Assembly: GCA_943736015.1 (NCBI GenBank) | Contig: OX031072.1 | Location: 4,677,501-4,741,500, forward strand | Length of the DNA stretch: 64,000 bases | Source of the DNA: Tridacna crocea | Lineage: Eukaryota > Mollusca > Bivalvia > Cardiida > Cardiidae | Reading direction: 5' to 3' | Shown here: positions 9,505 through 58,329 of the stretch, one piece after another | How the letters are laid out: each line of letters starts with the position of its first letter | How positions within the stretch are numbered: the stretch's first letter is position 1 | The notes under the pieces: generated by a model | Databases searched by the model: none | Told to the model about the DNA's origin: nothing | What the model saw: the letters and a program-made list of their open reading frames with translations, nothing else | Translations under genes and position numbers: made by a program

Positions 9505-9733
9505 TTAACTCTTTACCACACAATCCCGACTTTTAAGAACCCTGAGCAAGAGGCCCTTTGAAAACATTGTAGGAAAAGGAGAAAATGCTGGTAACCGGCA
9601 TTTTCTCCTTTTCCCACAGTGTTTTCTACCCTTCCCAAAGGAAATCTCAATTTTTGAGCCACGTTCATTTTGTGTTCTGCAAGTGCTTTCAATTTGGACA
9701 AGTCTAAAATTTTGTCGTTTGGTAAAGAGTTAA
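9505..9733 (+). mobile_element. Family A MITE, complete
   Basis: TTAA at 9505 and 9730. Core reads GGTAACCGGC, one mismatch in the stem. Confidence 0.9.
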
Positions 9734-11252: not shown

Positions 11253-11502
11253 TTAACTCATTATCAAACGACAAAATTTTAGACTTGTCCAAATGGAAAG
11301 CATTTGCAGACGACAAAATAAAAGTGACTGAAAAATTGAAATTTGTGTTGCAAATGGTAGAAAACATTGTGGGAAAAGGAGAAAATGCTGGTTACTAGCA
11401 TTTTCTCCTTTTACCACAATGTTTTCTAAAGGCTTCTTTCTCATGGACGTCAAAAGTAGGGATTGTGTGGTAAAAACCCGGTATTGTGTGGTAAAGGGTT
11501 AA
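11253..11502 (-). mobile_element. Family A MITE, complete, with duplicated end
   Basis: TTAA at 11253 and 11499. The terminal block TATTGTGTGGTAAA occurs twice at the right end (11460-11500), adding about 22 bases. Confidence 0.88.
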
Positions 11503-22000: not shown

Positions 22001-25000
22001 TTTACGCCGCCTTCAACAGTATTTCAGTCATATCACGGCGACAGTTCACATATTCATGTTTCCTGGGTTTCACCAGTACTAGGCTAGGCTCTGAAGTGTC
22101 TTGCCCAAGGACACTCCTGAGAAAAAATCCAGTGGAGCCAGCGAGGCTCGAACCTGGGACCTCCAGGTCACGAGCCCTACACTTAACCACTGAGCCACAC
22201 AGGACCCATATTGGTTGTCAATCCTGTCAGGCTAACCAGAAATTGTATCAGACGTTTTTGTTTACATGACACCAAATGCTGCGTTTTCACTGGCCGACAA
22301 GACATGGTCTGTAGTTCAGCTATGCACTTGTTGCAAACTTCCATGTCCGTAACAAATGACACAACTTTCTTTCCAAGTCTGCTTTCTATTTTGGCCAGTC
22401 AAAATTGTTGTGATTTTGTAAAGAGTTAACAGTTATCTATCTCGCACTCAAATCTAAATACCTACCCATGCCGTATCCACCATCCATAGGTGGAGGAGCC
22501 CTGTAGGCACCCCTGTAACCAGCTCTAGGATAGTAGCCTCTGTAGTATGGGCGACGACCTCGGCCACGGTAGGATCGGTTCCTGTCTACTTCCTGGCCTC
22601 CATTATCGTCCTGAAATCAAAAGTGCCATTTGAAAGAATGATTTTTTGGGATTCCTAACCGGAAATGAGAAATATACGAAAACCATCTCTATGGCATTTT
22701 CAAACAACAATTGTTGGAACAGAATATTTTCGTTCTTATGTGTCAGGAATAGAAGCCCTTTGAAAACATTGTGGGAAAAGGAGAAAATGCTGGTAACCAG
22801 CATTTTCTCCTTTGCCCACAATGTTTTCTATCCTATCATTTATAAAAATCATCTTTTTAGCAACTGTTGTCATCTGCAAAATGCTTTGAATTTTTGGGAA
22901 AGGGTTAAATTGTCATTTCTCTAGGACAACAGTACTTCATAAAGTAAGGGCATCTTATTTGGATGCCAATGCTGTTTTCAGGGAACATACTTTGTTGGGA
23001 GAAAAGAAAGGCATTACCGAGTCTCATATATTTCTAAAGGTTGTACTCCTTATCAGAGCTCCAGATAGAGGGAGTGATTTTAATCTTAAAATTGAAAATA
23101 CTAATTATTTTATCCATTAAACCCTATGTGATAGGTACTCATTAGTAGCATCTCATCGAGACAATTCTAATGAGATCCCACATCATAGGGTAAGGAAGAT
23201 AAATAACTGATTTAGAATACCATCACTCTCCTTTTTCTGCAGCTCTAGCCCTTTTGGTAAAGAACCCTCTTTTGATAATTATGATAATTACATACATCAC
23301 CCAGAAATCAATGATAGACACCATAACAGACGGGCCTGACAATACTTGGAACATTCTCTTTACAAAATAGACAATCATTCAAATTGTTCCTGTGTGGAAA
23401 TACAGAAGAAAAGGTGAGTCATGCATAGGCTTGTTCAGTGGGATGGTTGTATGTTCTCATACAGTGTCTACATAGCAGATATCATTGTTATTACTTAACC
23501 CTTTACTCCATAGATACTCATTTCTACGCATTGCTTGTAGGAGCTTTTGGAAAACATTGTGGCAAAAGGTGAAATTGCTCGTGACGAGCAATTTCACCTT
23601 TTGCCACGATGTTTTCTATGCTATCAAAAGATGTCATATACGCATAAGAAACAGCTTCATCTTTGCTGTTATTTAGGGTCAATTAGCTGTACCATAGAAA
23701 TGCCTTATGGGGTAAAGGGTTAAAATGTAAAGACAGGATCACTATTCACACCAGTCAACGTTCAAATTAACCTAAATCTAAACAGTCACACTTACCTCTC
23801 CCTGGTTTCTAGGTATGCGTCTTCTTGGATACCACTGACGACGATATCTCCTGCGGTCTGCAGCGTACTTACTGCCCTGCACTGGGGCACCACTGGGTCC
23901 AGTGACATTTGCAGCTTCGTTACCCTGGAAACAAGCATGGTGATTTAGTTACCGCTTTGCAAAATGATCAAATTTAGACTGGACCAAATTGAAAGCATTC
24001 GCAGACAACAAATTTGATGTTACTTAACTAATTTCTATTTTGGACAGGCTAGAAACTGATGTTGGAAAAGGAGAAAATGCTTGTAACTATTGTTTTCTCT
24101 TTTCCCTGCATTGTTTCCAAAAACCTTCTCTTTCAGGGTGTTAAACGATGATTGTTTGGAAAAGGGTTAACCCATTACCACTCAATCCCTACTTTTGACG
24201 CCCCTGAGAAAGAAGCCTTTTGAAAACACTGTAGGAAAAGGAGGTAACCAGCATTTTCTCCTTTTCCCACAGTGTTTTCTACCCTTCCCAGAACAACTTT
24301 CAATTTTTCAGTTGCCTTTATTTTGTCGTCTGCAAATGCTTTCAATTTGGACCAGTCTAAAATTTTCTCGTGTGGTAAAGGGTTAAGGTGTATGCAGCTT
24401 CTTTTAAAAGCAATAATATGATTTTTTTTTGGTGTTCCTTAAAATTTGTTCCATACTCTAATAAGGAGTTTAGTAATGAAGATTCAATCCGGCTTTGTAG
24501 GCCTACATCAAACTCTACATGCAAACAGGCTTTACAGACTTTTGGTTTTTCCTCAAATTCAAAAGCTTTTCAGAAACTGAATTTTCTGTCACTAACAATC
24601 AGTCAGGGAATCCAGTTCTCATCATGAAAGCCACAGCAATATCCAGAGGTTTTAACCACGCACAGCAATTTTGGGCTTTTCCAAACTCGAAGCATTTAAA
24701 GATGACTATAAATATCTCTCTAATTGTTATTGCTGTCACTGAATCGAGAGAAACAAACAATGTGAAGAAGAAGAACATGCTGGTATCAAGCATTTTTTCC
24801 ATTTCCTACAATGTTTTCAAAAGCATTCTTCCCTACAGTTGTTAAAACAGGGTAGTGTTTGGTAAAGGACTCTATCAAAGTCTATTTGATCATTTGAGCT
24901 GCATTTTAGCTGTCATCTGGTAATACTTTTAATAAGAACAAGTCTTAAATTCTGTCATATGATAAAGAGTTGTAGCCAAACATTTTTGACCAGTTCATAA

Positions 25001-31000: not shown

Positions 31001-34000
31001 CTTTTTAAATCATCGTGAGAAAAGGAGAAAATGCTGGAATTCATGGACAAACTGTTTGATTAATTATTGTTATGGGAGGGACTCCCTCATACATGGCTCC
31101 ATCCAAGTTCATATACAATACTTAACAACTGTAATAGGGAGAATTCCCTTTAGCTCAGAGGTTATGGTATTGGCCTTTCGTCCATGCATTCTAGGTTCGA
31201 ATCCTGCCCAGTCGCTGTATTTCGGCTATGCATTTGTTCATTTTCTTCTTTTACGGACTTTGTTCCTTAGAATATGTAAATAATGGTTTATCAGTTGGTA
31301 ACAGGCCTCCTAGCAGGCCAAAACAAAAATAAAGGTTTTTATAAAGGCTCCAATGTATGAAAATAAAGGCCTTTTAGCGTGAAATATGAAAAAATAAAGA
31401 GTAAATAAAGGCTATTTTCGTCGAAGTTCTCATTTCTTTATTAAACCCACAGTCATACCAAAGTCATTTTTTGATGTTATATACTGTTTGAATTATGCAA
31501 TATAATACATACCTTATTTAATGTGTATACTTATTTTCTCTGCATATTTATATCATACATAGCTCCTGTTTTACAGTGTAGAATCTACATCCACTTTGTC
31601 CATTACTTGCTTTAAGCTAGCACGGCAACCAGTCAGAGCAAATATAAAGGTTTTGAGTGAGAATTACAGGCTATTTTGGCGTTTTAAAGGTTTTCTGGGG
31701 AAATGTAAAGGTTTTAAAGGTTTGCTCTGAAATTAAAGGTTTTTAAAGGTTTTAAAGGTTTCACTAGGAGGCCTGTGGTAATTTATGTAGATCTACCATC
31801 TACATGCAGACCCACAGTAGAGGAATAATGTGTAAATGTGAGGCAACTCTTACCTATTAATGAAGCCATATCCACTTTTTACGTTAAACCATTTTACTGC
31901 ACCGGTGACTTTGGTTGCTGCAACAGATGATAAATAGATGTAATAGTTCAATCTAAAAGGCCCGGTAGAAGCCAACATTATTTTGAAGTATTTAGATAAC
32001 TGTGAAAATGATAAAAACAAATTTTTGTTACTGAACGGTCTGTCTTAGTGTTAGTTCCTGGTAGAAAAGTGAACTGCAAATCTAGATTACTAGTTTCCAG
32101 GCTGATCTGCTTGATTTACATTTTACCTGGTTTTTCCATTTCATTTTTCTGCCAGTGACTTACACTTTGACCTACCATACATAACAGTTCATCAAATCTG
32201 CAGTGAATTCCAATCTCTTAAACCAAAAGGGCCATTTTGAGTAAAATTTATTATCAATAATTTTTTTATTGGCAGTGGCTAGAGATACGGTACCGTACCT
32301 CTAGCCTATATCGAAGAGATGGCTAGAGATACGGTACCGTACCTCTAGCCCCGGAGTCTAAAGATACGGTACCGTATCTTTAGTCATTCTTATGAAATAG
32401 GCTAGAGGTACGGTATTTTGTAGATACATGTAAGAAATTATAAATTTACTTCAGTTTTGATTATTATCGTTATTAGTATGAATTTGTATTAATTGATCAA
32501 CATCAAAGGACAGAAACTCATCAAGTTGCAGTGTGCGAATGTGCACTGATGAGCGAAAATAATAATTGCGTTAATTATTAGGTGAATTTGATTACTTAAC
32601 CCAGGGATTCTATATGACATATGTATTATCCCTGCTTTACCCTTTCTCAAAAGACAAATTTTACACTCAAAGAATTTGTAAACAATTTAAATTTTGATGA
32701 AAAATGGTGGAAAATGGTCGTCCAAGAGGGTAGAAAACACTGTTGGAAAATGAGAAATTAGCATTTTCTCTTTTTCCTACAGTGTTTTCAAAGGACTTGT
32801 ACTGCATGTAGGAAAGCAGTCAGTGGCTTAGAAAGAATATTGTGCCAAGTACTGGTTATAAAAACTCGAGGAAAGCATGAATAGGTGCACTGGCCGATGC
32901 AAAAGTACTGAAATACTGTTGAAAACGGCGTTAAACATCATTCATTCAATCAAATTCCTAAAGTTATTTACAATTTGCAACCATGTGCAGGCCTAGCCCC
33001 ATAGCTCAGTCGGTATAGCGTACCGGAACTGAGAACAGGAGATCGCCGTTCGATCCACGGCTCGGCCAATAAAAATTTCCGAGGATTGATGACAGTCATT
33101 GCGACAGGATTCATTTCTCTCTCACTGCTGTCCAGTGTTTCGACGATAGTTATGTGGGAAATCAGCCAGTGACTTGGAAAGAATATTGTGCGGAGAACTG
33201 GTTAAAAGAACTCATTGTTCACATTATTTTTTGCCCTTAATGTTTGCAATAAATATTTATATATAATTCATGCCGTAAAATTCTGCTTCTACCATACATA
33301 AGCAATAGCCCACACCAAATTTCAGTTCGAATCATGCTTACCAGACCCGAACCTAAACACGCAACTCTATCCGCCGCTCCAAACACAATAGTAGATAAAT
33401 AAATGAATAAATAAAATAACTTAATAAGTATAAATAGATGGATGGTAGACAGACAGACAGAGATAACCTTTGTTTTCTCACTCCTGTCCCTCTGGCTTTG
33501 AAATTCTTGCCACCATGAATACAGTACAGCGATATCCAGTAATATATCCTTTCTTTTATTTTTGTTTGTACGCGCGTCTGGGCTTTTTGTATAGTCATAG
33601 AATCCCTCTAGTAAAACTGCATACTTTCTGCACTTTGATAGCACTCTACTGCGCTTTTAAATGTTTGAAAATCTGCAAATTTCTTCCCGACGTGAATACT
33701 ATAAGCCATTTTGACCGTATGATACAAAACTGGCTTGAAAGTGCTTTCAGAAAATTTTCCGTGATTGAGTAATAGATTAATTATTAATTTCCGTGATTGA
33801 GTAATTGATTAATTATGTCGTTTTCCATAATCAATTAAAGAACAACAAAAGTTAAAATAATGTAAGATCCGCATACATCTTAAGCAATTAAATTCACCTA
33901 ACTAATCAACGCAATTATTATTTTCGTGCATCGATGCAAACTCGCACACTGCAACTTGACGAGTTTCTGTCCTTTGATGTAGATCAATTCCTACAAATTC

Positions 34001-34945
34001 ATACTAATAACGATAAAAATCAAAACTGAAGTAAATTTATAATTTCTTACATGTACATGTATCTACAAAATACCGTACCTCTAGCCTATATCATAACAAT
34101 GACTAAAGATACGGTACCGTATCTTTAGACTCCGGGGCTAGAGGTACGGTACCATATCTCTAGCCATCTCTTCGATATAGGCTAGAGGTACGGTACCGTA
34201 TCTCTAGCCACTGCCTTTTTTATTGATTGCTCAGGTTGTTAACATTTAACCCTTAGCCTACATGAGCAACTTATGTGTGCAGGGGGAAGGGATGGTCCCT
34301 TTGCAATGTAAAATGCCACACCACACACTCCCTACTTTTGACAACCTCGAAAGAAAGAAGCCGTAAGGAAACATTGCGGAAATAGTTGGAAATGCTGCTT
34401 ACCAGCATTTTCTCCTTTTCCCAGAACGTTTTCTACCCTTAACAAAAGCATTATCAAATTTTCAGTCACTTTTCTGTCGTCTGCAAATGCTTTCAATTTG
34501 GGCAAATCTAAACTTTTGTCGTTTGGTAAGGAGTTAAGGGAACCACAGGATTGAATGAATCATTCATAAGATATTTTGAAAAAGAAATCCCTTGAGGAGG
34601 GGTTGATCTTGAGACCCTCCGAAATTTTCCATTCATTTGGTACATTCTGAATGTAGGAATCAAGTTTGGTTTGTTTTAATCATAGGATAACTTACAATGT
34701 TTGAAAGCACCATGAATTAGTGTTTACTAACAACACTGATGGCTCATTGATCCGATCGAACTAGCCGATTAGTTAACCACGTGACGGACATGCCGCCATT
34801 ACAATAGCCCATGCGGATCCCGGTACGGTCCGAAAGTATTCGCCGAATTTAACGAGATCAACGATGCTTTTGCTAACATCAACTTACCGATGACTTTCTT
34901 CTCAACCACCGCTTCATTCTCCGGCTGGTTCTCGGAGTCGGACAT
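19006..34945 (-). CDS. YBX1: Y-box / cold-shock-domain RNA-binding protein, 8 coding exons
   Basis: Joining 34945-34888, 31917-31854, 30685-30652, 26011-25922, 23924-23796, 22610-22466, 21343-21159 and 19077-19006 gives 777 bases, 258 codons plus stop, with all introns GT-AG. The cold-shock domain spans about residues 20-91. It carries KWFN (28-31), the RNP1-like SGYGFI (34-39), the RNP2-like VFVHQ (48-52), then NNPRKYLRS and FDVVEGEK, all close to vertebrate YBX1. The C-terminal tail alternates basic/aromatic Arg-Tyr-Gly blocks (98-122, 138-165, 180-238) with short acidic stretches and ends in an acidic tail (238-258). It is shorter than the vertebrate protein, mainly at the N-terminus. Family role: Y-box proteins bind mRNA and single-stranded DNA, package and stabilise cytoplasmic mRNPs, and affect translation and splicing. 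Which of the vertebrate YBX1/2/3 paralogues it matches cannot be decided; the symbol names the family. The introns are loaded with mobile elements but no exon is broken. Confidence 0.95.
19127..19160. repeat. Poly-G tract
   Basis: About 28 G in a row, 50 bases inside intron 7 from exon 8 and directly next to the tandem array. Hard to sequence; a likely site of assembly error. Confidence 0.9.
19167..20578. repeat. Four tandem 353 bp units in Y-box intron 7
   Basis: Units start at 19167, 19520, 19873 and 20226 and look identical base for base, judged by eye over the full length. Each holds a half family A element (CACTATGTTTCAAAAGC ... GATTGTGTGGTAGA), a complete A2 element and a short spacer ending TGCTTAATCCCA. 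The repeated minus-strand 62-residue ORF is a by-product. Confidence 0.95.
19275..19502. mobile_element. Family A2 TTAA-bounded hairpin MITE (unit 1 of 4)
   Basis: A2 shares TTAA ends and CCCTTTACTCCATA termini. It replaces the stem by ACATTGTGGCAAAAGGTGAA with centre ACTCGTCACGAGC. Same positions plus 353, 706 and 1059 give the other copies (19628-19855, 19981-20208, 20334-20561). Single copies occur at 23495-23723 and 38971-39199, in the opposite orientation. Confidence 0.9.
20668..20887 (+). mobile_element. Family A MITE with stem deletion
   Basis: One stem arm lacks the GAAAATG segment (GGAGACTGGTAACCAGCATT), making the hairpin asymmetric. Right TTAA at 20884. Confidence 0.82.
21159..21343 (-). 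CDS. YBX1: Y-box gene exon 7 (RGG-rich tail)
   Basis: A 185-base exon for residues 174-235. It reads [20 protein letters not shown], then a Tyr/Gly/Pro spacer and an RGG-type run ([20 protein letters not shown]). Acceptor TTACAG at 21344, donor GTAAGG at 21158-21153. The open frame runs on into intron at both sides, ending VRIQDYCP beyond the donor. The join to exon 8 is preferred because it yields an acidic conserved-type tail, but retention of this intron would give a slightly different C-terminus. Confidence 0.9.
21631..21838 (-). mobile_element. Family A MITE inserted in a SINE-like repeat
   Basis: TTAA at 21631 and 21835. Flanks CATGGCTCCTCCCCGAT and ATACAATATCTAACAACTG are contiguous, without the MITE, at 31088-31130. 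That marks the exact insertion boundaries. Confidence 0.9.
21865..21960 (+). mobile_element. SINE head fragment
   Basis: TTTAGCTCAGTGGTTATGAT resembles a tRNA A box region and matches 31143-31170. The body is lost. Confidence 0.5.
21981..22205 (-). mobile_element. tRNA-derived SINE, full length, inverted
   Basis: On the minus strand: an A box in TGGCTCAGTGGTTAAG (about 22200-22181), a B box GGTTCGAGCC (22154-22145), then the body TCCTTGGGCAAGACACTTCA and the tail CTGTTGAAGGCGGCGTAAAA with a CAAACAAACAAA end. It lies in Y-box intron 6. Not a functional tRNA: no acceptor stem pairing. Confidence 0.85.
22466..22610 (-). CDS. YBX1: Y-box gene exon 6 (Arg/Tyr/Gly tail)
   Basis: A 145-base exon for residues 126-173 plus one base of Gly174. 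An acidic DDNGGQEVD stretch is followed by [20 protein letters not shown] and a Pro/Gly/Met end. Such alternating acidic and basic clusters drive RNA-dependent multimerisation in Y-box proteins. Acceptor TTTCAG, donor GTAGGT. Confidence 0.92.
22708..22908 (+). mobile_element. Family A MITE, 5' end diverged
   Basis: Normal from AGAAGCCCTTTGAAAACATT to TTAA at 22905. The left terminal repeat is unrecognisable. Confidence 0.8.
23050..23255. mobile_element. Family F element
   Basis: Ends AGAGCTCCAGATAGAGGGAG and CTCCTTTTTCTGCAGCTCT. Inner inverted pair GGTACTCATTAG / CTAATGAGATCCCAC. Intron 5 of the Y-box gene. Confidence 0.75.
23495..23723. mobile_element. Family A2 MITE, complete
   Basis: TTAA at 23495 and 23720; core GCTCGTGACGAGC. 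Inverted relative to the intron 7 array. It ends 73 bases below the donor of exon 5, in intron 5. Confidence 0.9.
23796..23924 (-). CDS. YBX1: Y-box gene exon 5 (end of cold-shock domain, first basic block)
   Basis: A 129-base, phase 0-0 exon for residues 83-125. It begins [20 protein letters not shown], the conserved C-terminal edge of the Y-box cold-shock domain, and continues into an Arg/Tyr block ([19 protein letters not shown]). Acceptor TTCCAG, donor GTAAGT. Confidence 0.95.
23945..24170 (-). mobile_element. Family A MITE, old copy
   Basis: Stem strongly decayed (AATGCTTGTAACTATTGTTT). Its left part lies only about 20 bases from the exon 5 acceptor. The right TTAA is shared with the next element. 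Confidence 0.7.
24167..24386 (+). mobile_element. Family A MITE sharing a TTAA with its neighbour
   Basis: TTAA at 24167 (shared) and 24383. One stem arm lacks AGAAAATGCT. Confidence 0.88.
24650..24870 (-). mobile_element. Family A MITE, old copy
   Basis: AACATGCTGGTATCAAGCAT core, TACAATGTTTTCAAAAGC arm and TTTGGTAAAGGA end. The TTAAs are gone. Confidence 0.65.
24880..25125. mobile_element. Two decayed family A remnants
   Basis: A long arm (GTCATCTGGTAATACTTTTA, CAAGTCTTAAATTCTGTCAT) is followed by a decayed core AAATTGTGGTTTCAAGCATT and an ATGGGTTAAC end. Confidence 0.5.
25126..25774. other. Intron 4 sequence, nothing seen
   Basis: No repeat or exon recognised in this part of the intron. 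Confidence 0.45.
25775..25860. mobile_element. Family B hairpin
   Basis: GATCAGACTGC / GCAGTCTGATCTTGATCTAC with TTCACTGTCC-type ends; 62 bases below the exon 4 donor. Confidence 0.8.
25922..26011 (-). CDS. YBX1: Y-box gene exon 4 (cold-shock domain)
   Basis: A 90-base, phase 0-0 exon for residues 53-82: [19 protein letters not shown] and [10 protein letters not shown], almost the vertebrate sequence. Acceptor TTTCAG, donor GTAAGT. A family A hairpin element begins about 30 bases upstream of the acceptor (26044-26271) and may overlap the branch-point/pyrimidine-tract region. Confidence 0.95.
26044..26271 (+). mobile_element. Family A MITE close to a splice acceptor
   Basis: Right TTAA at 26268, left TTCA at 26044. 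One-base deletions in one arm (TTTTCCACAATG). It begins 33 bases from exon 4. Confidence 0.88.
26398..26698 (+). mobile_element. tRNA-derived SINE, full length
   Basis: Head AAGCTCAGTCAGTAGTGTGC (A box) and GTAGGTTTGATCCC (B box). The body is TCATTGTGACAGGATTTATT, then TATGTGGGAAAGCAGTCAGT and ATGTTGAAAACACCATATAA with a CAATCACTTAATA tail. Inside intron 3. Confidence 0.85.
28087..28480 (+). pseudogene. Coding-like decayed block, family unknown
   Basis: One plus-strand frame reads [15 protein letters not shown], stop, [40 protein letters not shown], stop, [39 protein letters not shown], stop, and continues. Three stops in about 110 codons, with Lys-rich but otherwise protein-like composition, suggest the remains of a retrocopy or transposon protein inside intron 3. 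I do not recognise it, and chance cannot be excluded. Confidence 0.3.
28539..28704 (+). mobile_element. Family A MITE with hairpin half deleted
   Basis: TTAA at 28539; one stem arm to GAAATGCTGGTCAC, then directly into the long arm at TTTATT. The deletion removes the other stem arm. Confidence 0.82.
28750..28895 (+). mobile_element. Family A MITE, right half
   Basis: AGCATTTTAGCCTTTTCCAC, CAATGTTTTCTACCCTATCA, then a diverged long arm and CATGGTAAAGAA end. Confidence 0.65.
28896..29985. other. Intron 3 sequence, no gene
   Basis: AT-rich; only the last two copies of the 15-base motif were noticed. Confidence 0.5.
29990..30199 (-). mobile_element. Family A MITE
   Basis: Long arm first (AATTGAAAGCATTTGCAGAA); core GCTGGTACTGGCATT with small loss; end GGTAAAGGGCTAAA. 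Confidence 0.78.
30218..30300. mobile_element. Family B hairpin, diverged
   Basis: CAAGATCAGACCATGCAATC / GATTACACTGTCCGACAAAA. Confidence 0.7.
30315..30542 (+). mobile_element. Family A MITE, complete
   Basis: TTAA at 30315 and 30539; perfect central stem. It ends 110 bases from exon 3. Confidence 0.9.
30652..30685 (-). CDS. YBX1: Y-box gene exon 3 (micro-exon, RNP2)
   Basis: A 34-base exon giving the last base of Arg41 and [11 protein letters not shown], the RNP2 strand of the cold-shock domain. Acceptor TTTCAG, donor GTGAGT. It is too short for ordinary ORF detection and was found by its position and homology. It sits between hairpin elements at 30315-30542 and 30710-30925, only about 25 bases from the latter. 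Confidence 0.93.
30710..30925 (-). mobile_element. Family A MITE, complete
   Basis: TTAA at 30710 and 30922. Stem has several mismatches (AGAATAAAATGCCAGATAAC). Confidence 0.85.
30949..31037 (+). mobile_element. Family A MITE, left half only
   Basis: CCCTTTGCCCCACACAGT to GGAGAAAATGCTGG, stopping exactly at the palindrome centre, then unrelated sequence. Confidence 0.8.
31069..31240 (+). mobile_element. SINE-like repeat with tRNA-like head
   Basis: CTCCCTCATACATGGCTCCA ... ATACAATACTTAACAACTG ... CTTTAGCTCAGAGGTTATGG (A box) ... AGGTTCGAATCCTGCC (B box). Paralogue of the split copy at 21600-21960. Confidence 0.7.
31302..31775. mobile_element. 474 bp non-autonomous DNA transposon, 12 bp inverted ends
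   Basis: Ends CAGGCCTCCTAG and CTAGGAGGCCTG are exact inverted repeats, flanked by the direct repeat TGGTAA (31296-31301 and 31776-31781). The interior is rich in the string AAAGGTTTT, which recurs about eight times near the right end and several times at the left. This subterminal repetition is usual for hAT-like elements, though those normally make 8 bp duplications. Superfamily unassigned. Located in intron 2. Confidence 0.8.
31854..31917 (-). CDS. YBX1: Y-box gene exon 2 (cold-shock domain, RNP1)
   Basis: A 64-base exon entering in phase 1 and leaving in phase 2. It reads [20 protein letters not shown] and the first two bases of Arg41, so it holds the KWFN strand and the RNP1 nucleic-acid-binding motif. 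The acceptor is TTGCAG and the donor GTAAGA. From memory, the 64-base length equals that of the matching vertebrate exon, indicating an old intron pattern. Confidence 0.95.
32636..32797 (-). mobile_element. Family A remnant within the foldback-like element
   Basis: TTTACCCTTTCTCAAAAGAC, stem GAAAACACTGTTGGAAAATG / CATTTTCTCTTTTTCCTACA; right end replaced by a SINE tail. Confidence 0.75.
32798..32955 (+). mobile_element. SINE tail fragment
   Basis: GTAGGAAAGCAGTCAGTGGC through ATACTGTTGAAAACGGCGTT with a CATTCATTCAATCAAAT end. Confidence 0.75.
32992..33225 (+). mobile_element. tRNA-derived SINE
   Basis: Head CATAGCTCAGTCGGTATAGC (A box) and CGTTCGATCCACGG (B box). The body GTCATTGCGACAGGATTCAT and GTGGGAAATCAGCCAGTGAC is truncated before the tail. 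The tRNA-like acceptor arms do not pair, so it is not a tRNA gene. Confidence 0.82.
33226..33879. other. Middle of the foldback-like element, no identifiable gene
   Basis: Minus-strand ORFs of 135 and 81 codons overlap here but have low-complexity Leu/Ile-Phe-Tyr stretches and no transposase motif I can see. A 30 bp tandem duplication of CCGTGATTGAGTAAT lies at 33760-33818. Confidence 0.5.
34304..34537 (+). mobile_element. Family A MITE
   Basis: Diverged left end (CCACACCACACACTCCC); right TTAA at 34534. Stem with mismatches (GAAATAGTTGGAAATGCTGC). Confidence 0.82.
34538..34887. other. Start of Y-box intron 1, no repeat seen
   Basis: This 350-base segment next to exon 1 is free of dispersed repeats. 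It has GACATGCCGCCATTACA at 34787-34803, whose minus strand resembles a YY1-type ATGGCGGC core. It may hold downstream promoter elements. Confidence 0.35.
34888..34945 (-). CDS. YBX1: Y-box gene exon 1 (start codon)
   Basis: Encodes residues 1-19 ([19 protein letters not shown]) plus the first base of Ala20. The ATG has G at -3 and lies at 34945-34943. The donor is GTAAGT just below 34888. The KKVI-A-TKV junction into exon 2 is the one known for vertebrate Y-box proteins. Transcription must begin above 34945; no other upstream coding exon is needed. Confidence 0.93.
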
Positions 34946-47565: not shown

Positions 47566-47739
47566 TGATATTGATGAAAAAAAAAATTGATGGCAAAAGA
47601 CAGATAAAATTTCTACATACTGCTTGTCCGTTTCTATGATAGTTTTGATGGAAATGCTTTCAGGCACCTCAGAGCCCTTCAATTCGGAAACTTAGTTGAC
47701 ACCTAAAGAAAATTAAAAACAGCATAATCAATCGAATAG

Positions 47740-47906
47740 AAAATCAACCAACCAACAAATCAACCAACCAATCAATCAATCCATCCATCCATCCACATAT
47801 CCATCCATCCATCCATCCATCCATCCATCAATCAATCAGTCAATCAGTCAATCAGTCAGTCAGTCAATCAATCAATCAATTAGTCAGTCAGTCAATCGAT
47901 CCATCC

Positions 47907-47949
<43 letters not shown>

Positions 47950-48155
47950 CATCCATCCATCCATCCATCCATCCATCCATCCATCAATCAATCAATATAT
48001 TGATCGATCAATCAATCTATCAGTCAGTCAGTCAGTCAATCAATCAATCAATCAATCAATAAGTCAGTCAGTCAATCGATCCATCCATCCATCCATCCAT
48101 CAATCAATCAATAAATTGATCGATCGATCAATCTATCAGTCAGTCAGTCAGTCAG

Positions 48156-48188
<33 letters not shown>

Positions 48189-48206
48189 TAGTCAGTCAGT
48201 CAATTG

Positions 48207-48249
<43 letters not shown>

Positions 48250-48392
48250 CATCCATCCATCCATCCATCCATCCATCCATCCATCCATCAATCAATCAAT
48301 CAACCAATCAATCCAACTATCAATCAATCCATCCATCCATCCATCCATCAATCAATCAATCAATCAATCAATTAGTCAGTCAGTCAGTCAGA
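47740..48392. repeat. Compound tetranucleotide microsatellite (ATCA/ATCC/GTCA)n
   Basis: About 650 bases of ATCA, ATCC and GTCA/GTCAA units arranged in a higher-order pattern. Blocks of CAGTCAGT-ATCAATCA-ATCCATCC recur, with GATCGATC markers at 48001-48007 and 48117-48127. The Asn-Gln-Ser-Ile repeat ORFs are products of it. Confidence 0.95.
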
Positions 48393-48954
48393 TCGAGCGA
48401 TCCTTTCTTGCAGCTGTTTATTTTTAGAATATTGCAAGACAGGCTTACCTAACAGTTACTTTCGAATTCTTTTGCTGTAGTATGATTGCACACTGCTTCA
48501 AACATATTTTGGTTTAACTCTCATTTTGTCAGTCAGTCAGACAATCGGTTGGTCGGTTGTTCCTTGCAATATCTTGCAATATTGCAAGACAAGCTTACCA
48601 AACAATAAATTTCGAATTCTTTTGCTATAGAGTATGATTGCACATTGCTTCAAACATGTATTCGGCGAAGCTCTTATTTTATAAATTTATGACGCGTGCA
48701 CAATTAGACCTAGTGTAAATAACAAGTAGCTTAAAGCACGTGATTTAATTACACGTGTAAAATATTTATTATGCAAGGGAAATATAGCATGCAACCAGTT
48801 GCAACCAATGCACTTGACAGGCACTAGATCCCTTGCATAAAACTTGTGTAATTACTTGTTAGAGGACAGAGAGACAGACGGAGTGAGAAATAAAAATCCT
48901 GAGAACGACCGAAGAAAAGTTCAGGAATGAAAAAGATAGACCGTTGACGCTTAG
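48393..48954. other. No gene; short local duplication
   Basis: ATATTGCAAGACAGGCTTAC followed by TTTCGAATTCTTTTGCTGTA (48429-48505) recurs at 48577-48665, so a ~150 bp tandem duplication follows the microsatellite. Confidence 0.6.
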
Positions 48955-49133
48955 GATATTGTTCTTGACTCACTGACTTTTTGCGGACATTGTAGATCAA
49001 GATCATACTGTACAGAACGTGCAGTCTGATCGGTGATCTACTCTGTCCGATACAGACATATTTTGCCTTTGGAAAAAAAATATCAGCGATTGAAAAGTTT
49101 CATTTCAATTATTTAGCAGGATGAGGATATTAA
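48955..49133 (-). mobile_element. Family B element sharing TTAA with family A
   Basis: Hairpin 48978-49050. The right end TTTAGCAGGATGAGG leads to TTAA 49130, which also starts the following MITE. Confidence 0.8.
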
Positions 49134-49357
49134 CCCATTACCAAAGGACAATATTTTAGACTGGTCCAAATTGAAAGCTTTTGCAGACGACAAAATAAAA
49201 GTGACTGAAAATTTGAAATTTGTTTTGTGAAGGGTAGAAAACATTGTGGGAAAAGGAGAAAATGCTGGTTACCAGCATTTTCTCCTTTTCCCACAATGTT
49301 TTCGAAAGGCTTCTTTCTCAGAGGCGTCAAAAGTAGGGATTGTGTGGTAATGAGTTG
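49130..49357 (-). mobile_element. Family A MITE, complete
   Basis: TTAA at 49130, right end mutated to TTGA. Perfect stem. Confidence 0.9.
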
Positions 49358-56380: not shown

Positions 56381-57002
56381 CTTATACACACGGTGAGGAA
56401 ACTACATAGACGGAGCCATTGGCTCTGTTAAGGAAATCTTGTGTGGGTTTTTCCGGTCACGTGCGGCGCCGTCAATATCGGCTGTTTCGGTGAACACGAA
56501 AACGTAAGTCTCCCATTTATTGTCAAAATTTGATTTTATACTGAACACTAGCGAGAAAAGTGGAATTGTATGAGGGACCTATGACTTTCAACTTACTTCC
56601 TTGTCCGTAGGGAGTTCCAAGTCGGCGCGGTTTTGTCTGAAACACTTTTGCCGTGAGCCACGGCGAGGTAAACAAAGGTCATTTTCTATAATGACCACAG
56701 GCTTTCTATTGCTCTTTCTGCATAAATATTACTTATCTAAATGTTTACACCGTCCGAATGTATGAAGTGATTATCTAATCCTTCCCCACTCACGAAAAAC
56801 AAAATTTGAATCAAAATAAAAAAAATTGAGAAAAAATAAACAATGGCTCCGTCCATATCGGCCGGCTCTGTCTATATCGGCTGGCTCCGCTGTATGAGGG
56901 CGAGTTTTAGAAGCGATAGGTTTTTTTCGCTATTGGGTTTACCAGTCAAAAGTTAGATTTTTTGAAAGTTATTTTTGGAATGGTGATGCTTTTCTCGAAC
57001 CA

Positions 57003-57245
57003 TCTATCATTTCAAAAAGGGCGGTCACGTGGTTAAAGTGGTTGACTTTAGTGCTCTTGATCATTCGACCATATCACCCTGTGGGTACAGGGCACTCTCG
57101 GACAACGTGGACAAGCCAAGTTCTGCTTGCGGGTGTGTCGGGTGTTTTTCCCGGGATACTCCCGGGGTACTCCCGTTTCCTCCCACTTACCGATCCATTC
57201 GTCTCAATACCAGTTTAACAGCTTGGGGGACGCAAAACTGAATAA
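57003..57245 (+). mobile_element. SINE-like unit inside the Transib-like element
   Basis: GGTCACGTGGTTAAAGTGGT (A-box-like) and a GC-rich core TCCCGGGATACTCCCGGGGT ACTCCCGTTTCCTCCCAC. The family is recalled loosely, not assigned. Confidence 0.5.
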
Positions 57246-57284
57246 AACCAATATTTGAGAATAACCTTTGTAAAAGTTTTGCAG

Positions 57285-57740
57285 GTATGTCTGAAGTTGA
57301 CACTCCAGACTTGAGTACTTACTTTTAGCTTGACTGCACGAAGTGTGAAGAGTTATTGTAGTCACCTCGATCGTCCGCGTTCCCGTGCGCGTCCGCGCTC
57401 CCGTCACACTGATGTATAGTTTTTTATAAGTCCACATCATGGCAACAACTTATCATAGAGGGTCCAAACTTGGACCATAGTTACTCAGTAGGGTTGGCTT
57501 TCATTCCATGACATGGGCCCCTGGGTCCTTGTCCGGGGGATGGGGCTAGGGGTTAAAATCTAGAACACCTTAGAAAATTGACTGTGGTATAGTTTTCTAT
57601 AAGTCCAGATCTCGGCTACTACTTATCATAGATTCATTCCATGACATGGGCCCCTGCATCCTTGCCCTGGGGGTGGGGGTGGGGCTTAGGGCTAAAATCT
57701 AGAATATCTTCATTATTTTTTATTTGTGCCTTAAACCATC
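57285..57740. repeat. Dispersed repeat with internal duplication
   Basis: TTGACTGCACGAAGTGTGAA, CGCGTCCGCGCTCCCGTCAC, then TTATAAGTCCACATCATGGC and TTCCATGACATGGGCCCCTG at 57410-57570. The latter pair repeats at 57595-57720. Confidence 0.65.
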
Positions 57741-58329
57741 AAGGCCATGAGATATATGAGTGTGTGTATGAGTTTTGTTTCAACTGTGCATATACGTCGC
57801 TTCTAAAACTCGCCCTCATACAGCGGAGCCAGCCGATATAGACAGAGCCGGCCGATATGGACGGAGCCATTGTTTATTTTTTCTCAATTTTTTTTATTTT
57901 GATTCAAATTTTGTTTTTCGTGAGTGGGGAAGGATTAGATAATCACTTCATACATTCGGACGGTGTAAACATTTAGATAAGTAATATTTATGCAGAAAGA
58001 GCAATAGAAAGCCTGTGGTCATTATAGAAAATGACCTTTGTTTACCTCGCCGTGGCTCACGGCAAAAGTGTTTCAGACAAAACCGCGCCGACTTGGAACT
58101 CCCTACGGACAAGGAAGTAAGTTGAAAGTCATGGGCCCCTCATACAATTCCCCTTTTCTCGCTAGTGTTCAGTATAAAATCAAATTTTGACAATAAATGG
58201 GAGACTTACGTTTTCGTGTCCACCGAAACAGCCGATATTGACGGCGCCGCACGTGACCGGAAAAACCCACACAAGATTTCCTTAACAGAGCCAATGGCTC
58301 CGTCTATGTAGTTTCCTCACCGTGATACA

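Follow-up and report, generated by a model that had tools for sequence, protein, structure and literature searches.

The V(D)J recombinase derives from Transib and its relatives, and Hztransib, the Transib element of Helicoverpa zea, itself starts with CACGGTG. Pack-type elements, which are non-autonomous, capture genes between their ends. For Hztransib, 5-bp target-site duplications and long terminal inverted repeats are described, and the single duplication given in the available part of the source is GCTCG (PMC1852546). RAG-like transposons likewise start with CAC and have 5-bp duplications (available part of PMC7204232), and GC-biased duplications have been reported for ProtoRAG, Transib, and vertebrate RAG (available part of PMC8289069). 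The CACTA-Mirage-Chapaev-Transib (CMCT) clade (members as named: EnSpm/CACTA, Mirage, Chapaev, Transib, Plavaka, ESTA, and Lanisha) is characterized by CA...TG ends and 2–5 bp duplications (available part of PMC12730594). Here, we analyzed a long-armed insertion in the genome of Tridacna crocea together with its genome-wide copies, for which we observed complete ends, target-site duplications at other copies, many near-identical copies, variable interiors, and two giant copies with duplicated flanks. We lean towards regarding it as a non-autonomous cut-and-paste transposon that is moved in trans by a transposase of the CMCT clade, nearest to Transib. What is new here is that some copies carry a truncated zinc-finger exon and that the arms are related to DNA lying upstream of that exon's relatives.

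The element in the window and its arms

The window, i.e., the whole stretch of 64,000 nucleotides that was analyzed (C17:4677501-4741500, in a genome of 1.05 Gb and 31 contigs), contains a complete insertion at 56389–58324, which confirms the original observation. The CACGGTG ends, the ATACA duplication, and the near-identical 528-bp arms noticed in the sequence-only reading are all present there (Table 1): the element runs from CACGGTGAGG to CCTCACCGTG with ATACA on each flank, and its 528-nt arms are 99% complementary, spaced by 880 nt, with their mismatches located at 56493, 56561, 56577, and 56580. No open frame of at least 120 aa was found in the 880-bp interior, which includes two pairs of imperfect direct repeats (57408–57459/57581–57632 and 57500–57571/57633–57710). 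The window had no Rfam match at gathering scores, and a scan of viral contigs with the terminal 25-mer returned no matches.

The heptamer CACGGTG by itself is no evidence, because its count in the window is near expectation (3 found vs. 2.49 expected, with at least 3 in 43 of 100 shuffles). Each arm contains exactly three copies of the motif GTCNATATCGGCYG, as had been claimed for the element's ends, and the remainder of the window has none (≤ 2 mismatches); these 6 matches compare with a mean of 0.73 in shuffled sequences, none of which (0/100) reached 6. A partial inverted copy of the motif region close to the left terminus is mirrored in the right arm at 58292–58307.

Table 1. Features of the insertion, in window coordinates
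Feature	Position	Strand	Length or remark
Whole non-autonomous element	56389..58324	.	1936 bp
Left target-site duplication	56384..56388	.	ATACA
Right target-site duplication	58325..58329	.	ATACA
Left arm (terminal inverted repeat)	56389..56916	+	528 bp; outer end CACGGTGAGGAAAC
Right arm	57797..58324	-	4 mismatches vs. left arm
Interior	56917..57796	.	880 bp
Stretch present in most fetched copies	56988..57014	+	27 bp
Inverted partial copy of motif region	56406..56421	-	ATAGACGGAGCCATTG; 17 bp inside terminus
Arm motif copy 1	56471..56484	+	GTCAATATCGGCTG; candidate binding site
Splice-donor-like GTAAGT (putative function)	56504..56509	+
Arm motif copy 2	56851..56864	+	GTCCATATCGGCCG
Arm motif copy 3	56870..56883	+	GTCTATATCGGCTG
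Arm motif copy 3, right arm	57830..57843	-
Arm motif copy 2, right arm	57849..57862	-
Arm motif copy 1, right arm	58229..58242	-

Copies, target sites, and giant elements

Genome-wide, the terminal 29-mer (≤ 2 mismatches) was found 187 times in forward and 186 times in reverse orientation, against 0 and 0 for the reversed-pattern control; the places of approximately 100 of these 373 ends were listed, covering C1 to part of C4. A DNA search with the whole element gave 226 candidates, of which the best 40 were scored. Half of these, 20 copies counting the one in the window, align with the entire element at 96–100% (positions 1–1936 in 19 cases and 1–1910 in one), while the remaining 20 match positions 1–1376 and have different pieces beyond. 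Facing pairs among the ends listed span approximately 0.54, 0.97, 1.6, 1.95, 2.3–2.4, and 3.3 kb and, in two cases, 26.9 and 33.1 kb, and copies with differing internal content share the same arms. A chance origin is ruled out by these 29-mer counts, the motif shuffles, and the target duplications.

The flanks were compared at 44 copies. Exact 5-bp duplications were present at 34 of them and exact 4-bp duplications at six (L002, L005, L013/014, L048, L055, and L065); two copies have 5 bp with one mismatch (L032/033 and L058), one has a duplication of either 4 or 6 bp within a TG run (L063), and one has none (L054). The 5-bp duplication expected at other copies is thus the prevailing form, but the clean 4-bp cases run counter to one fixed length. 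A foldback-like or chance inverted duplication that arose without transposition would also explain long, near-identical arms, yet it is refuted by duplications of 4–6 bp at 43 of 44 copies (one mismatch allowed) and is further at odds with the dispersal of copies across the genome, and we give it practically no credence. At the 34 five-bp sites, for which both strands were counted so that the base composition is symmetric by construction, the duplication has an A+T content of 74–86% per position (mean 78%) vs. 65% in the flanks, and C stands directly before it in 54% vs. 18.5%; the preferred target is therefore C-WWWWW-G (C-W5-G).

The family is young: across 62 arms from 31 elements, the mean difference from the family majority is 1.5%. 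Arms within one element are on average 2.57% apart (31 elements), whereas arms of different elements differ by 2.19% on the same side and 2.27% on opposite sides, and 13 two-state sites (minor state in at least 8 of the 62 arms) explain part of the arm differences. Because arms within an element are no closer than those between elements, arm similarity in one copy shows neither conversion nor age; the arms of the window copy, 0.76% apart and the second lowest of 31, thus lend no support, as a family rule, to arm conversion or to a special youth of this copy. The low arm divergence had been taken as a sign of recent activity or conversion, of which the youth of the family stands, but the likeness of the arms is itself uninformative.

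The two giant copies (33,119 and 26,917 bp) have their own 5-bp duplications, AGTGC and TATTA. Their edges are those of the 1.6-kb form: one side has the arm continuing to position 1001, and the other has the arm and a further 40 bp. A TG/CA run occupies this place in the 1.6-kb form; three of the four junctions have the run next to the foreign DNA, and at the fourth, on the right of the 33-kb copy, the foreign DNA starts at the same place with no run. Long stretches, some of them inverted, are shared between the two giants, mostly at 90–97% and in some parts at 76–86%. They were considered and rejected as autonomous elements, as their longest stop-to-stop frame has 164 aa (pieces read separately) and no Pfam domain was found over the cut-off in a six-frame scan of two of the seven giant pieces (L043:1500-10000 and L039:1042-10000, with L040, L041, L042, L044, and L045 outside the scan), where the best sub-threshold match was DUF4013 (E 0.0071, 16.6 bits vs. 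a cut-off of 26.9). Of the cargo in L043, 8.3 kb are present at other loci (best 6 of 19,846 candidates scored), and the copy of this stretch on C17 has no arm within approximately 1.5 kb beyond one side, which makes the cargo look like captured genomic DNA. We read the giants as passenger elements that took up genomic DNA and afterwards moved as units, and at 27–33 kb these copies show a large carrying capacity for an element with terminal inverted repeats.

Transposase searches and placement of the family

The autonomous relative envisaged in the sequence-only reading, with a gene for a Transib or RAG1-like core, was not found. The RAG1 profile PF12940 had no match in the genome, nor in any of 14 control genomes. 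Two Transib queries, a 68-aa motif and a 337-aa Transib-like protein, matched the solved HzTransib chain 6pqn_A (E 1.1e-21 and 8.7e-112, respectively) and returned nothing in the genome at E values up to 1, in a search whose initial screen let through one candidate for the motif and four for the protein and may be too coarse. By tblastn, the 337-aa query had no match in 67 loci and the window, and the two zinc-finger loci considered below (L076 and L077) gave best E values of 2.0 and 0.94 against the Transib query, which are not significant. The Transib and RAG1 negatives do not prove absence, since these searches had no positive control. Likewise, a CMCT-type DDE transposase (C(2)C and H(3-4)H motifs) was not found with the Transib/RAG1-type queries. 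No coding, autonomous copy was found either, and because approximately 100 of the 373 ends were listed, one may sit among the remaining ~270.

Seven unpaired ends on C1–C4 were considered as autonomous carriers and rejected, since no recognised transposase was present in any of them (blastn to family copies and inspection by eye). Four (L068, L072, L073, and L074) have more arm sequence within and seem to be ordinary or short copies with an undetected second end, in L071 the arm content is a 75-bp piece only, and L069 and L070 have only non-arm DNA in common with the family copies. Near the unpaired arm of L069, a minus-strand frame listed at 288 encodes 112 aa with two repeats of what we take to be a SAP-like helix pattern (...LKRLAKERRLRGYSSLRRAELIGLL...). 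Part of L069 is also matched by part of L043.

The placement nearest to Transib, the most likely one in our analysis, rests on the CAC...GTG ends and the 5-bp duplication, both of which were found (exact 5 bp at 34/44 copies, exact 4 bp at 6/44), and the CA...TG ends with 2–5 bp duplications of the CMCT clade are likewise found in this family. Unlike Transib, the family has A+T-rich C-W5-G duplications, 4-bp duplications at some copies, and giants, and its transposase was not found. A GC bias of the duplication is a reported but not strictly defining trait of Transib, and the 78% A+T seen here is opposite to it, which argues against plain membership in Transib, RAG, or ProtoRAG.

These features bear on an alternative in which the transposase that mobilizes this non-autonomous element does not belong to the Transib branch but comes from a diverged or undescribed lineage or from a 5-bp hAT, with a preference for A+T-rich targets; the CAC end would then be shared through clade ancestry or by chance. 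We regard such a driver as possible but doubtful. The absence of Transib/RAG1 matches in the genome, the A+T-rich duplications inside C...G, and the 4-bp duplications at 6 of 44 copies all favor it, but CAC...GTG together with 5 bp is the usual Transib combination, and the genome search may have been too coarse at its first look. For the hAT variant in particular, a CAC end is an argument against. Lineages of hAT with 5-bp duplications do exist (available part of PMC12730594).

It is very improbable that the family is RAG-like (ProtoRAG-type) and has lost a RAG1L-RAG2L pair. The CAC start and the 5-bp duplication are shared with such elements, but beyond CAC, CACGGTGAGGAAAC misfits the protostome consensus CACTWMCAAACKTYKBB (available part of PMC7204232), neither RAG1L nor RAG2L was seen, the 528-bp arms are symmetric, the targets are A+T-rich, and the RAG1 profile had no match, although none of the 14 control genomes matched it either. 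The element had originally been taken for Transib/RAG-like; its mobility, its Transib-type ends, and its mostly 5-bp duplications uphold part of that identification, but no core was found, the target bias is reversed, and the RAG-like label has no support. The Transib-like ends stand as a resemblance, and the element works like a Transib derivative, but we do not classify it as such, given that its transposase was not found and its target bias is the opposite. The literature search gave no match for Transib together with CACGGTG, which is the sole basis for our impression that the end sequence is novel.

Under the preferred reading of a CMCT-clade driver, a transposase encoded elsewhere would bind the 528-bp arms, probably via the repeated GTCNATATCGGCYG motif, and cut before CAC at both ends, and the freed DNA would then enter C-WWWWW-G sites through cuts staggered by 5 bp or, at times, 4 bp. 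Interiors would vary among copies because only the arms matter, so that loss of internal sequence, uptake of foreign DNA, or joining to a zinc-finger exon would each be tolerated. With Transib-type ends, A+T-rich targets, and no Transib/RAG1 core detected, this young, high-copy family offers a natural test of which end, stagger, and target features go together.

The zinc-finger exon, its genomic relatives, and other repeats

In the 2.4-kb copies, an antisense zinc-finger exon joins the element where the 27-bp stretch (Table 1) ends. A 301-bp antisense stretch was recovered in four fetched loci (L036, L061, L065, and L066); in L061, an acceptor-like TTTGCAG precedes an ATG and a frame of 68 aa, which encodes two C2H2-type fingers, of which the second is truncated. 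Genome-wide, all 24 scored candidates match this stretch, nine over the entire 301 bp and 15 over its last 89 bp. Eight of the nine full matches lie in copies of ~2.4 kb already identified, and the ninth (C11:39404458), considered as a separate locus, proved to be another 2.4-kb copy. Captured-DNA interiors between constant arms are common to this family and Pack-type elements, from which it differs in reaching 33 kb and in having arms that resemble DNA upstream of the carried exon's relatives.

At the protein level (best 150 of 594 candidates), the exon's nearest relatives apart from the family copies are on C4 (53%, E 3.3e-16) and C6 (43%, E 2.2e-11), followed by a match at E 5.6e-6 that belongs to the general zinc-finger background. 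Each of the two loci contains an open exon with six fingers as counted by eye. Arm-like DNA is present approximately 3.2–3.3 kb upstream of both exons, outer end first, and corresponds to arm positions 1–512 on C4 (58.8%, E 3.7e-15) and 8–63 on C6 (75%, E 1.1e-5). Compared with 60 shuffles, the alignment of arm positions 1–150 scores 14.3 sd above the mean for C4 and 12.5 sd for C6, and that of positions 400–528 reaches 15.2 sd for C4 only, C6 being not above 4 sd; positions 150–400 stay at ≤ 4 sd at both loci. The similarity between the C4 and C6 loci begins no more than 3 bp from the arm terminus (226–230 bp, 73%), their finger exons are 76% similar over 649 aligned bases, and in the first two fingers they share 33 of 50 residues, compared with 27 between the family and C4 and 22 between the family and C6. 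Immediately outside the arm-like end on C4, open frames on the minus strand (L076 5002–5974) had no Pfam match and presumably resemble the C-terminal part of a Polinton-type protein-primed DNA polymerase B.

These relationships raise the possibility, held tentatively but seriously, that the zinc-finger gene is the transposon's own, with the arm serving as promoter, untranslated exon, and splice donor and the fingers forming the last exon. The C4 and C6 loci would then represent ancient copies that are immobile or domesticated, the abundant families would have arisen from such elements by deletion, and the fingers may help to recognize the arms. Such an arrangement is compatible with the CMCT explanation, to which it adds a component. 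In its favor, both of the closest exon relatives have arm-like DNA upstream, the alignments stand 12.5–15.2 sd above shuffles, the similarity of the two loci starts practically at the arm terminus, arm and exon have diverged to a similar degree between C4 and C6 (73% vs. 76%), and C4 and C6 are the closest pair in the fingers too. The 118 differences between them in 172 codons fall 32/30/56 by codon position, and the 56 at third positions suggest selection on the finger protein. Several observations weigh on the other side: a second arm was seen neither between arm and exon nor in the 1250 bp that follow each exon, a downstream stretch that on C4 is interrupted by a copy of an abundant 230-bp repeat; parts of the arm (150–400 at both loci, 400–528 on C6) do not rise above 4 sd; the arm's GTAAGT aligns with a splice-donor-like GTAAGC on C4 but with ATAAAC on C6; there are just two such loci; and zinc-finger genes are numerous and readily captured.

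The C4 arm moreover comes from an abundant family, and it may have inserted next to a host gene independently. Used as a query, it gave 1316 first-look candidates, the best 40 of which were scored and consist of itself and 39 matches at 90–92%, all beginning and ending at the arm's two ends; it belongs to a second, abundant long-arm family. Among these best 40 of 1316, facing pairs are found at C10:35140172-35142837 (2666 bp) and C8:6415581-6419627 (4047 bp). The simplest joint reading is that arm and finger gene have diverged in parallel in at least three lineages; alternatively, an element with an arm may have inserted next to a host finger gene, whose exon was then captured. If the zinc-finger gene is a transposon gene, a transposase system would have been joined by a separate DNA-binding partner, and such genes would outlive the transposon as host-like genes. 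A bolder and rather unlikely version makes the family a lineage that is neither Transib nor RAG-like, in which the arms would also act as promoter and first exon for a C2H2 gene with several fingers and would have co-diverged with it in at least three lineages, insertion would occur with a 5/4-bp stagger at C-W5-G, more than 30 kb could be carried, the finger protein would be the arm-recognition partner of an unseen transposase, and two copies would have been kept as host-like genes.

Other repeats were noted in the window. The repeat that interrupts the C4 locus is very abundant, with dozens of matches of ~230 bp in 64 kb (e.g., 9505–9733, 11253–11474, and 49130–49356); a core of ~67 bp matches itself in both orientations, and one direction reads as protein over 22 residues. 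A second element with long inverted repeats occupies 32271–34215, with arms at 32271–32577 and ~33903–34215 (98% and 92% complementary stretches) and ends near GCAGTGGCTAGAGATACGGTACCG; it is flanked on both sides by TTTTTTATTG, with an extra C on the right, and resembles a transposon whose duplication is longer. At 47717–48427, a 236-aa open frame of NQSI/HPSI repeats is a simple repeat array and not a gene. Between 19346 and 20564, four copies of a 160-bp stretch are spaced at intervals of 353 bp (19346, 19699, 20052, and 20405), and an inverted relative of this stretch is located at 23492–23651.
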